64,000 nt of DNA, from assembly GCA_040220875.1 (NCBI GenBank), contig JAVJVX010000005.1, positions 434,001 to 498,000 on the forward strand. Reading direction: 5' to 3'. A program made the translations under genes and the position numbers. The notes under the pieces are model-generated. The model saw only the letters and a list, made by a program, of their open reading frames with translations. It did no database searches and was not told where the DNA came from. The stretch's first letter is position 1, and every line of letters starts with the position of its first letter. This document shows, piece by piece, positions 44,418 to 51,619 of this stretch. The stretch is from Alphaproteobacteria bacterium. Its GTDB lineage: Bacteria > Pseudomonadota > Alphaproteobacteria > JAVJVX01.

Positions 44418-45242
44418 TCAGCCGGTCAGCGCATCCCAGTACATTCGGGCCGAGGTAACGGCCAGAAAAAATGCGAACGCCGTACGAAGCCAGTCCGTGC
44501 GGATGGTGTGGGCCAGACGCGCGCCCCACGGGGCGGCCAGCATGGTAGCCGGCACGATCAGCCCGAAAGCCGCAAGGTTCACGTAGCCAAGGCTGAAGCG
44601 TGGCAGGCCCGTCTGCCCCCAGCCGGCGGCCACAAATCCGCAGGTGCCGGGGATAGCGATGATCAGACCGATCGCGGCGGCAGTCCCGACGGCGCGCCGG
44701 ATCGGATACCCGAAGGCACTGAGGACGGGCACGGACAACGTGCCGCCGCCGATTCCCATCATTGCCGAAACCGCGCCGATAAATCCGGCCGTGAGAACCT
44801 TGGCGATGCCCTGCGGCAGGTGGTCGGATATCCGCATGCCTTCGCGCGATATCATCATGCGCAGGGCCACCATCAGCGCGATGCTCGCGAAAACAAGCGA
44901 CAGCACCACGCCTTCGGCCACGCTGGCGAGGGCGGTCCCGAGCGCGACGCCGACAAATATCCAGGGGCCCCAGCTTTTCAGGAGTGCGCCATCCACGCCG
45001 CCACGGCGATAGTGGGACAGGGCGGAAACGGTCGAGGTCGCGATGATCGTGGCCAGCGAGGTGCCGACTGCCAGATGCATGCGGACAGCCGGGTCGAAAT
45101 CGAACCCGGTCAGCACGTGAAAGAGGACCGGCACGATGACGATACCGCCGCCGACGCCAAGCAGGCCGGCGATAAGCCCGGCGAACAGGCCCGTCGCCAG
45201 GAGCAGTGCCGCCAGCGGCAGGAGGGCGGAGGGCTCAAGCAT
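44418..45242 (-). CDS. TSUP (TauE/SafE) family permease
   Basis: A 274-residue inner-membrane protein with about eight helices and the two-fold family repeat: LIAGLLGVGGGIVIVPVLF near the N-terminus and FIGAVSAMMGIGGGTLSVPVLSAFGYP in the second half. The family exports or imports sulfite, sulfoacetate or other organic anions; substrate not predictable. Ends 10 bp from the convergent unknown gene. Confidence 0.92.
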   Translation of the reverse strand: MLEPSALLPLAALLLATGLFAGLIAGLLGVGGGIVIVPVLFHVLTGFDFDPAVRMHLAVGTSLATIIATSTVSALSHYRRGGVDGALLKSWGPWIFVGVALGTALASVAEGVVLSLVFASIALMVALRMMISREGMRISDHLPQGIAKVLTAGFIGAVSAMMGIGGGTLSVPVLSAFGYPIRRAVGTAAAIGLIIAIPGTCGFVAAGWGQTGLPRFSLGYVNLAAFGLIVPATMLAAPWGARLAHTIRTDWLRTAFAFFLAVTSARMYWDALTG

Positions 45243-48308: not shown

Positions 48309-49382
48309 TCAGTGGAGGGAGGGACGCTTCAGCAGATCCGCCCGATCGACCGAGCGTACGCGGACCGACTGCATCTGGCCGTCGCGGAATACAGTCAACG
48401 GAATTTCCGTGCCCGCGGGGCCCAGCGCCCACATACCCCGCAAGAACCCGGCCAAGGTCGTGACCTCGCGGTCGCCGACGGCGAAAATTACATCGCCTGT
48501 CGCGAGGCCGGCCCGGGCGGCGGGACTCTTCTCCGAAAGCCCCACCACGACCAGCCGCCCATCAACGTCGGTGGCGTAGGCACCAATCCAGGGGCGCGAC
48601 GGTGTCCGACGCCGGCCATAGCGCTGGAGATCGTCCAGGATAGGCGGCAGGAGATCGATCGGGATCGACATATTGCCCTGAGCCCGCACGCCGGTATCGA
48701 GCGATGCGCCCTCGTCACCAACCCCGCCCCAGGTCGGCTCGTCGTTATCGAGCAGGGAGTCCCGGTCTTCGTCGTCGTCGTCCTCGGGCTGAACCAGCAG
48801 CGAGCCGATCCCGACCAGTTCGCCGGCCCGGTTGATCAGACCTGCCCCGCCCCAGTTGGGATGGGCCGGGCCGGTATAGATCGCGTCCTTAAGGAAATAT
48901 TCCCAATAGCCGGCAAACGGCCGGATGTCTTCCACCTTGGCGAGAAGGGCCCGCCGGCGTCCGCCGGCCCCCGCGAACAGGACCTGCTCGCCCGTCCGCA
49001 ATGCGGCCGAGCGACCCAGTGGCAACGGCGCAACATCAAGCGTCCCCAGCGCCTGGACCAGGCCGAGACCGCTTTCGAAATCATAGGCGACCTGATGCGC
49101 CGGCAGGGCCTGAAGGCCGGAACGGCCACCTGACGCGGTGAGCCAGATATCCGCCGCCTCGGTGACGAGATAACCCACCGTCAGCACCAGCCCGCCTTCC
49201 GCGATGACGACGCCGTGGCCGGCTCGCTCGGTGCCCAGAATGGGCGCCGTGAACGCGTCTTCGGGAATCCGGGTGCGCACGGAGACAACCGCATCGAGCG
49301 CGCGGTTCAGGTCGAAATCGACATCGCCTTCGACCGGGCGTGCGTCATTGGGAATGTCCCAGGCATCTGAATTCGTCGTCAT
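48309..49382 (-). CDS. HtrA/DegP-like pseudoprotease with PDZ domain
   Basis: A 357-residue protein with the S1C protease plan: protease-like domain (about 25-235) and PDZ domain (about 255-350; RPWIGAYATDVDGRLVVVGLSEKSPAARAGLATGDVIFAVGDREV). The catalytic positions are all replaced: TNNHVV is TVGYLV (His lost), the Asp block is DFESGLGLV, and GNSGGPL is PNWGGAGL (Ser lost). There is also no signal peptide, so it should be cytosolic, and an acidic insert (QPEDDDDEDRDSLLDNDEP) near residue 210. Likely a binding or scaffold protein. ATG chosen before TTNSDAWDI. Confidence 0.85.
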   Translation of the reverse strand: MTTNSDAWDIPNDARPVEGDVDFDLNRALDAVVSVRTRIPEDAFTAPILGTERAGHGVVIAEGGLVLTVGYLVTEAADIWLTASGGRSGLQALPAHQVAYDFESGLGLVQALGTLDVAPLPLGRSAALRTGEQVLFAGAGGRRRALLAKVEDIRPFAGYWEYFLKDAIYTGPAHPNWGGAGLINRAGELVGIGSLLVQPEDDDDEDRDSLLDNDEPTWGGVGDEGASLDTGVRAQGNMSIPIDLLPPILDDLQRYGRRRTPSRPWIGAYATDVDGRLVVVGLSEKSPAARAGLATGDVIFAVGDREVTTLAGFLRGMWALGPAGTEIPLTVFRDGQMQSVRVRSVDRADLLKRPSLH

Positions 49383-49589
49383 TGCGTCATTCTCTTGGTT
49401 GCACCGCCATCTTCCACAGGCAGGACCGGCGAGGGCCGGCCCCCTGACCCCGAGCATCTAGCAGGGTTATATCAGATGACACCATATCCTCGAAAATTTG
49501 ACGATGCGGTCATATCGTACCCGCCGCCATTCACGCATAATTGAAAACAGGAAAGCGTGCAGGCATGCTGGCGCGCACCGGAGAGATCG

Positions 49590-50600
49590 ATGCCCAACCG
49601 CCTTTTTTCCGTGACCGCCCCCGCAGGCTACCAGGATACGATCCGCGCCACGGCGGAAGAATGTGACGTTCTCGACATACGCGAGCGCGCGCCCCTCAGC
49701 GACGGCCGCATCTCGATCGAGCTGGCGGTCGGCCCCGACAACCGCCAGGACGTGCTGGACCGGCTGCAGGCGGCGCTCGGCGGGAGCGAAGACTGGCGCA
49801 TCGACATATTCTCCCTCGAGGCCACGCTGCCCGCGCCCGGTGGCAACGGGACCGGCGAATCCCGTCGGGCGACAGGCGCCTCGACCCGGGAGGAACTCTA
49901 TAACGAGGTTGCGGCAGGCGCCTCGCTGAGCTGGACCTATCTCTATCTCGTCGGCCTTTCCACCGTGGTCGCGGCGATCGGCCTCCTCGCGGATTACACG
50001 GCCGTCGTGATCGGCGCCATGGTCATCGCCCCCCTGTTGGGTCCCAATCTGGCGCTTTCTCTGGGCGCGGCTTTGGGCGACCGGATGCTGATCGTCCATG
50101 CAATCCGGACCTTGATTGCGGGGCTGGTCCTCGTGCTGGTGATCAGCGCGGCCCTGGGTGCCGTCTATCCGCCTGAGACGGCCAGCGTCGAACTCATGAG
50201 CCGGGTGGACGTCAACATGGCCAGCGTCGTGCTCGCCCTGGCGTCGGGCGCCGCCGCCGTCCTTTCGCTGACCACCGGCCTGTCCGCCGGGCTGGTGGGG
50301 GTCATGGTCGCCGTCGCCCTTTTGCCACCGGCGGCGGCGACGGGTCTGTTCCTCGGCGCCGGCGTTTTCCATCTGGCAATCAGCGCGGCCCTTCTCCTGG
50401 CGGTGAACATTGTCTCGGTCAACCTGGCCGCCCAGCTCGTCTTTATGGCGAGGGGAATAAAGCCCCGCACATGGCTGGAAAAACAGGCCGCCCGCCAGTC
50501 GAGCCTGTCCAACCTTCTCGCTCTCGCCATTCTGCTCGCCCTCATGCTGGGGGCGATCTATTTCTATGTGCCTCGACTGCTGGTGACCGCCGGGCCGTAG
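49590..50600 (+). CDS. TIGR00341/DUF389 family membrane protein
   Basis: A 336-residue protein: cytosolic ACT-like N-terminal domain (about 1-85), then about six to seven membrane helices with STVVAAIGLLADYTAVVIGAMVIAPLLGPNLALSLG, the DUF389 signature, and VAVALLPPAAATGLFLGAG. Function unknown. ATG with GGAGAG five bases upstream. Convergent with the DUF547 gene. Confidence 0.9.
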   Translation: MPNRLFSVTAPAGYQDTIRATAEECDVLDIRERAPLSDGRISIELAVGPDNRQDVLDRLQAALGGSEDWRIDIFSLEATLPAPGGNGTGESRRATGASTREELYNEVAAGASLSWTYLYLVGLSTVVAAIGLLADYTAVVIGAMVIAPLLGPNLALSLGAALGDRMLIVHAIRTLIAGLVLVLVISAALGAVYPPETASVELMSRVDVNMASVVLALASGAAAVLSLTTGLSAGLVGVMVAVALLPPAAATGLFLGAGVFHLAISAALLLAVNIVSVNLAAQLVFMARGIKPRTWLEKQAARQSSLSNLLALAILLALMLGAIYFYVPRLLVTAGP

Positions 50601-50622: not shown

Positions 50623-51507
50623 TCAGGGCAGAGAGGTCCCATTGAGCGACCAGTCGTAGCGATAGTCGGAAATCTCGTCGTTTAGGGCGAGGGATTCGGC
50701 CAACGCCAAATCCGCGAAACGGCGAATATGGGCGATGACATCCTCCTCGTCCCGGCCGAAATCCTCCTCAAACCAGCTATAGATCTTGGACAGGACCAGC
50801 CCGTCCGGGCCGGCCGAAACGCCGCGCGGATGATTGATGTAACTCCGCGCGCCTTCATCCAGCAGGGCCGGCGCTCCGCTGCCTGTAAAGGGGTGAGCGA
50901 TCAGGTTGGGGCAGCCGATCGACGCGCAGTTGACCGCGTAATGGATGCGCGGATCGCGCCAGATCGGACGCAGGATCCGATGCTCGATATCATTGAGAGA
51001 AACTTCGTGCCCCTCCACGGTAACGAGCGTCTTGCCCCAGGGACCATCGGCGAAAAATCCCGGCGAGATGTCAATGTCGAGGATTGTGTCCACCGGAAAA
51101 TGATCGAGCACGACCTGGACGGTCAGCGCGTTATAGAGGTTGACCCAGAACGCCAGCTGCTCGTCGCGGTTCAGGGTGCTGACCGGCAGCGCCGCCAGAC
51201 GGTCGATATACGTGCCGAGTGCCGCCCTGTCCCCGGCCGTGACATCGCCATACGCGACGCGATTGATCCCGTCATCGCCCACCACGACATAGCGCGTCAA
51301 AAATTCGCCCCAGTCGCGGTGATCAACGATTTGCGCGGATTGGGGGTCGTGGCGTGTCCACCTTTCCCAGAGATCGGCCTTCGGCGCGAACAGCGCATCG
51401 AGGCTCACCGCCCCCGCGCCCGGCGCGATGAAGGGCGCAAGCGACAGGGCCAGGGCCGCGATCAGGAGCTTCAGGGTCAAGCCGGGTCCGTGGGGGTGCG
51501 GGCGCAT
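50623..51507 (-). CDS. DUF547 secreted protein
   Basis: A 294-residue protein with a Sec signal peptide (TLKLLIAALALSLAPFIAPGAGA, cleaved about residue 33) and a DUF547 domain: LAFWVNLYNALTVQVVLDHFP, DIEHRILRPIW, HYAVNCASIGCPNL. The family has a cysteine-protease-like fold but no known substrate. AGGAGG ribosome site before the ATG fixes the start. Downstream of the symporter gene but separated by a terminator. Confidence 0.92.
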   Translation of the reverse strand: MRPHPHGPGLTLKLLIAALALSLAPFIAPGAGAVSLDALFAPKADLWERWTRHDPQSAQIVDHRDWGEFLTRYVVVGDDGINRVAYGDVTAGDRAALGTYIDRLAALPVSTLNRDEQLAFWVNLYNALTVQVVLDHFPVDTILDIDISPGFFADGPWGKTLVTVEGHEVSLNDIEHRILRPIWRDPRIHYAVNCASIGCPNLIAHPFTGSGAPALLDEGARSYINHPRGVSAGPDGLVLSKIYSWFEEDFGRDEEDVIAHIRRFADLALAESLALNDEISDYRYDWSLNGTSLP

Positions 51508-51523
51508 AAGGCCTCCTGACAGG

Positions 51524-51557
51524 AAAAAATTGGGAGCAGCCGCCAATTTCGCTGCCC
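51524..51557 (-). terminator. Intrinsic terminator after the SSS symporter gene
   Basis: Minus strand: GGGCAGC ... GCTGCTCCC (one bulged T) followed by AATTTTTT. About 60 bp after the symporter stop and just ahead of the DUF547 ribosome site. Confidence 0.65.
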
Positions 51558-51619
51558 CGTGAGAACCGGGCAAGTCACCATTTCGGGAGGCCAAAGAACC
51601 GGCCGCCCGTCCCTCTGTC

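Follow-up and report, generated by a model that had tools for sequence, protein, structure and literature searches.

A widespread alphaproteobacterial family of HtrA-like pseudoproteases with a predicted cytosolic branch

INTRODUCTION

What is an HtrA-type protein for when every residue needed to cut has been replaced? The question is raised by a gene for 357 amino acids (48309 to 49382, minus strand) in a 64,000-nucleotide stretch of an alphaproteobacterial contig, the whole of which is referred to here as the window. An earlier note on this DNA described the product as a cytosolic pseudoprotease with an S1C protease core, a PDZ domain, and an intact open frame, probably maintained for binding rather than decaying. 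Comparison with relatives places the protein, called pseudo-HtrA below, in the cytosolic branch of a pseudoprotease family derived from S1C proteases that is large, previously unnamed, and centered on alphaproteobacteria. No paper describing the family was found among openly licensed papers.

RESULTS

The window protein keeps an HtrA core and a PDZ domain without a signal peptide. A Trypsin_2-like pseudoprotease domain spans residues 46 to 198 (48789 to 49247, minus strand), as delimited by an AlphaFold2 model and by the Pfam model PF13365, which matched residues 55 to 192 with 46.6 bits against a cutoff of 27.6. A PDZ domain follows at residues 263 to 345 (48348 to 48596, minus strand); the PDZ_2 model PF13180 matched residues 265 to 342 with 45.5 bits against a cutoff of 27, and an R-P-W-[LI]-G motif aligned with the carboxylate-binding loop of HtrA proteins. 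Both Pfam domains were found in all 39 family members scanned. The AlphaFold2 model, built from a 39-row alignment, had a pLDDT of 87.3 and a pTM of 0.84, and Foldseek returned DegQ, DegP, Deg1, DegS, and HtrA1 as the best PDB matches (E values of 1e-19 to 1e-22). TM-scores to these HtrA structures were only about 0.5, with high rmsd, possibly because the two domains of the modeled pseudo-HtrA sit at a different mutual angle.

The 49382 start codon is favored by an ortholog alignment that begins "M....W-x-I-P," with an in-frame ATG farther upstream offering a 382-amino-acid alternative. Residues 1 to 27 (49302 to 49382, minus strand) form an N-terminal extension, W-x-I-P ... FDLxRAL, that aligns as a motif of the cytosolic branch and contains no signal peptide. 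A signal-peptide-like hydrophobic stretch is absent from the N terminus of the window protein, the one basis on which a cytosolic location is predicted. The frame is intact and aligns over its full length with orthologs about 55% identical. The protease core, the PDZ domain, the missing signal peptide, and the intact frame described in the earlier note are therefore all borne out.

DegP, DegQ, and DegS (HtrA; MEROPS S1C) share the Trypsin_2 core and PDZ arrangement and rank among the top PDB hits by both sequence and fold. Unlike these proteases, pseudo-HtrA lacks the catalytic triad and the oxyanion glycine and carries a single PDZ domain, and its cytosolic branch has no signal peptide. The model for DegP/DegQ/DegS equivalogs, TIGR02037, scored the window protein at 59.7 bits against a cutoff of 416.2. 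None of the NCBIfam models was matched above its cutoff by the window protein, and the models matched by its relatives were the same HtrA and PDZ ones.

All three catalytic residues are replaced throughout the family. Triad positions were mapped with an HMM against DegP chains in the PDB and with hhalign against 18 same-class HtrA proteins in which the His and Ser motifs are retained. Residue frequencies were counted in 226 nonredundant rows, two of which represent the window protein (as given and as the copy from its own genome). The catalytic His position is occupied by Tyr71 (49170 to 49172, minus strand), with Y in 222 rows, F in 3, and H in a single row; the Asp position is Gly105 (49068 to 49070, minus strand), which is G in 226 of 226; and the Ser position is Gly178 (48849 to 48851, minus strand), with G in 173 rows, S in 30, A in 14, and other residues in the rest. 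The aligned blocks read TNNHV versus TVGYL around His, an SDIAL-type motif versus SGLGL around Asp, and RGNSGG versus PNWGGA around Ser. Not one of the 226 rows retained two triad residues, and neither the class sample nor the phylum sample yielded an ortholog with an intact triad.

In the window protein, Trp177 occupies the position of Asn194 and Asn176 that of the oxyanion glycine (chymotrypsin residue 193). Position 177 is W in 195 rows, F in 25, H in 4, and Y in 2, and the oxyanion glycine is kept in only 2 of 226 rows and lost in 224. The family alignment could be read with Trp177 as the Ser equivalent, a reading ruled out by HMM-HMM alignment to active HtrA proteins, which places Gly178 there. 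The earlier note was thus right that the whole triad is replaced but one residue off in taking the tryptophan for the serine equivalent. On these sequence grounds, protease chemistry has almost certainly been lost, though the 30 rows with serine at the Ser position may retain some unconventional activity.

The family is common in alphaproteobacteria and labeled as protease. A search with the single protein found homologs in distantly related genomes from ten other families. Using the family alignment as the query, members were detected in about 95 of 385 sampled alphaproteobacterial genomes, or about a quarter. Full-length family matches in these 385 genomes had E values below 1e-92 versus about 1e-33 for ordinary HtrA proteins, with only contig-end fragments in between. 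Outside the class, the phylum sample contained the family in two genomes. Among GTDB contigs, the window protein alone as query gave zero matches, whereas the alignment query returned hundreds, amounting to no fewer than 589 loci; the 80 highest-ranked came from Bradyrhizobium, Methylobacterium, Rhodoplanes, Stella, Nitrobacter, Rhodopseudomonas, and many MAGs. Homologs were also present in Azospirillum and on rhizobial plasmids, and one translated from each carried the family motifs. Cytosolic orthologs from dozens of families were 49 to 58% identical to the window protein over the full length and had identical replacements.

The Neorhizobium petrolearium member WP_227705700.1, with TIGYL, SGFGL, and PSWGG in the three catalytic blocks, is annotated as "S1C family serine protease." The window genome encodes one family member and four other Trypsin_2 proteins. 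At a separate locus in that genome (L003; G000:C6, near 276358), one protein of about 541 amino acids joins a Trypsin_2 domain (100 bits; serine motif GGSSGSP) to an OpuAC domain of the glycine-betaine-type substrate-binding kind (145 bits).

The cytosolic branch is nested among secreted forms. The N-terminal W-x-[IFV]-P motif was present in 113 rows, and a signal-like hydrophobic stretch, as assigned by a hydrophobicity heuristic rather than a trained predictor, was present in 0 of these 113 and in 47 rows elsewhere in the family. C-terminal tails follow the same division. Members with the W-x-I-P type of N terminus have 10 residues past Arg347 in 109 of 113 rows and a terminal histidine in 105 of 113, as in the R347-...-L-H-COOH tail of the window protein (48312 to 48344, minus strand). 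The tails of the 47 signal-bearing rows are also 10 residues long (41 of 47) and end in Y, F, or L (42 of 47), giving signatures of -LH for the cytosolic branch and -[ST][YFL] for the secreted branch. The window protein has every mark of the former, namely Y71 and G105, WEY at 160 to 162, W177, the W-x-I-P motif, and the -LH tail. A further subgroup (e.g., loci L147, L188, L209, and L226) carries a short N-terminal "NGH" motif and has neither W-x-I-P nor a signal peptide.

In a tree rooted on active HtrA proteins, a single branch with 100% support separated the family from them. The secreted forms were basal; nested within these lay the groups with NGH and with W-x-I-P, at forks with supports of 90 to 94. 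The simplest reading of these sequences is that catalysis was lost once, in an exported ancestor, and that the signal peptide was lost later. Several inner branches had modest support (80 to 92), too weak for the exact number of relocations to be counted. Secreted and nonsecreted copies occurred together in 27 of the 116 genomes with a family member.

The former catalytic region is the most conserved part of the protein. Across 386 pairs of close orthologs, the median NG86 dN/dS was 0.097, with nearly equal values for the pseudoprotease (0.098) and PDZ (0.094) domains; the pairs consist of relatives' genes, the nearest homolog of the window gene being less than 60% identical. Mean column conservation, computed on the cytosolic branch at 75% redundancy, was 0.85 for residues 154 to 180, compared with 0.69 for the protease-like domain and 0.60 for the PDZ domain. 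This segment, R-x-F-A-G-Y-W-E-Y...P-x-H-P-N-W-G-G (48843 to 48923, minus strand), replaces the catalytic-Ser and oxyanion region, and W160-E161-Y162 within it is invariant in 226 of 226 rows. Because these residues are conserved most, the dead domain would not be expected to act as a mere spacer. Family-wide replacements, purifying selection in relatives, and the intact frame together uphold the proposal that the gene is maintained, and they point to the binding role suggested with it.

The insert at residues 199 to 236 (48675 to 48788, minus strand) is as strongly acidic as first described, with 14 D/E versus 2 K/R, and is predicted to be disordered (pLDDT below 50 at residues 209 to 231), but it is peculiar to the window protein. 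The corresponding region in other members is usually 8 to 17 residues long and never exceeds 25.

DISCUSSION

A probable binding protein of HtrA ancestry. Since every cutting residue is replaced, pseudo-HtrA probably binds proteins without cutting them, and its most probable identity is a catalytically dead, one-PDZ, nonproteolytic client binder descended from HtrA. The fold, the family-wide triad loss, the purifying selection, and the nesting of the cytosolic branch are computed results; its ligands, oligomeric state, and cellular role are inferred. An exported HtrA-type protease would have lost catalysis; a descendant lineage would then have lost its signal peptide, come to reside in the cytosol, and gained the W-x-I-P N terminus and the -LH C terminus. 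The PDZ domain would hold the C-terminal peptides of clients, and the old cleft, remodeled with the invariant WEY and the aromatic residue 177 at its center, would offer a second binding surface, so that the protein could serve as an adaptor, a holdase, or a sequestering factor. That the protein works through both surfaces as a cytosolic adaptor or holdase is likely, judging from the retained domains and their conservation.

A more speculative extension concerns the fixed-length C-terminal tail, which might itself be a PDZ ligand, leading to head-to-tail assembly or to docking into the PDZ domain of an active HtrA. We consider this doubtful. The secreted -[ST][YFL]-COOH tail resembles the outer-membrane-protein C termini that activate DegS. 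If this tail or the cytosolic -LH-COOH tail were such a ligand, the family would act on either side of the membrane as a noncatalytic regulator of protein quality control, perhaps switching an active HtrA on or off.

Comparison with MamO and other pseudoproteases. The nearest precedent, MamO of magnetotactic alphaproteobacteria, is an HtrA-type pseudoprotease repurposed as a metal binder (PMC4794232), and pseudo-HtrA could by analogy bind metal through H174 and the C-terminal histidine of the cytosolic branch. The two share the loss of catalysis and a nonglycine residue at position 193, and MamO has a bulky Trp in its L1 loop (PMC4794232). MamO nonetheless belongs to a different lineage, since it keeps H116 and D149, has Thr225 as its predicted nucleophile, and combines a transporter domain with a di-His metal site on its surface (PMC4794232); the pseudo-HtrA family is a separate clade with no magnetosome context. 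The MamO model NF040961 left the window protein unmatched and hit only 1 of 39 members (1.4e-6), and membership in that family was rejected on this account. A TauE-type transporter domain is also absent from the window protein, whose 357 amino acids hold only Trypsin_2 and PDZ; a separate TauE/SafE gene lies at 44418 to 45242, unfused to pseudo-HtrA. Despite the precedent of a di-His site on an HtrA fold, and although the cytosolic branch keeps H174 (97%) together with its terminal His, no histidine is shared family-wide: in the secreted branch H174 occurs in 19 of 47 rows and a terminal His in 3 of 47. A MamO-like metal-binding role is therefore unlikely.

Other inactive proteases have been recorded in bacteria. 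In 2008, a survey of 91 genomes, alphaproteobacteria among them, tallied 42 inactive homologs of serine proteases, and its passages found by keyword describe no conserved family like pseudo-HtrA (PMC2605481). Pseudo-orthocaspases (Tyr/Ser variants) are lineage-conserved bacterial pseudoproteases in which Tyr replaces the catalytic His (PMC6426788); they have a caspase fold and are unrelated.

Gene neighborhood and the adjacent kinase. The earlier note had also singled out the neighboring hybrid kinase operon; pseudo-HtrA might be a dedicated partner, for example a PDZ scaffold, of the kinase and its response regulator. The kinase gene does adjoin: its start lies 138 bp downstream in the same orientation, and the shared strand of the intervening DNA showed no terminator-like site. 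It encodes HisKA, HATPase, and receiver domains and a subthreshold PAS match, and a response regulator gene overlaps its end. The link is not conserved among relatives. Only four neighbors within three genes of family members resembled the kinase; these were about 30% identical to it and differently arranged. Clustering of the neighbors of all loci showed that they differ freely between families, with no conserved operon partner beyond genus-level linkages. The kinase partnership was accordingly set aside as improbable.

Several local linkages were seen. At most Bradyrhizobium loci (e.g., L066:7971-9044 and L096:8015-9091), a 357-amino-acid Abhydrolase_2 gene lies directly downstream, often at 10 to 60 bp; this phospholipase/carboxylesterase-like neighbor was not found beside pseudo-HtrA in other genera. 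A divergent UvrD-like helicase gene adjoins pseudo-HtrA at 12 loci in about seven families, mostly of the secreted branch (e.g., L184 and L265), and a PrmA-like gene lies one position farther on at several secreted-branch loci; both genes were named by eye, and we judge the linkage to be synteny rather than function. In the window, a divergent gene for a DUF389/TIGR00341 membrane protein (49557 to 50600) adjoins pseudo-HtrA and is followed by a DUF547 gene (50623 to 51594).

Residual catalysis or decay. The retained fold, the strong conservation of the former Ser region, and the serine found at the Ser position in a minority of rows would fit a protease still active through an unusual catalytic center assembled from other residues of the fold. 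Yet the family as a whole has no conserved His or Cys, which disfavors a triad elsewhere in the fold; among H, C, S, K, D, and E, only E75, D101, E161, S194, and D297 are at least 90% conserved. With the near-universal loss of the oxyanion glycine and the invariant glycine at the Asp position also against it, such a center is very improbable. A pseudogene decaying in the window genome only, to which the private insert and a dN/dS drawn from relatives in a sample with no close relative of this genome might lend credence, is scarcely believable given the intact frame, the coding-type GC content by codon position (0.735, 0.497, and 0.771), and the full-length identity to cytosolic orthologs with the same replacements.

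Implications. Carriers of pseudo-HtrA include nitrogen-fixing and plant-associated genera, and the S1C serine protease label on dead HtrA proteins inflates protease annotations there. For mutation, the substitutions shared across the family, the WEY/Trp site, and the conserved C-terminal tail are direct targets. With one of its branches predicted to be cytosolic, this conserved dead HtrA would provide a clean case for roles of the HtrA scaffold without cutting.
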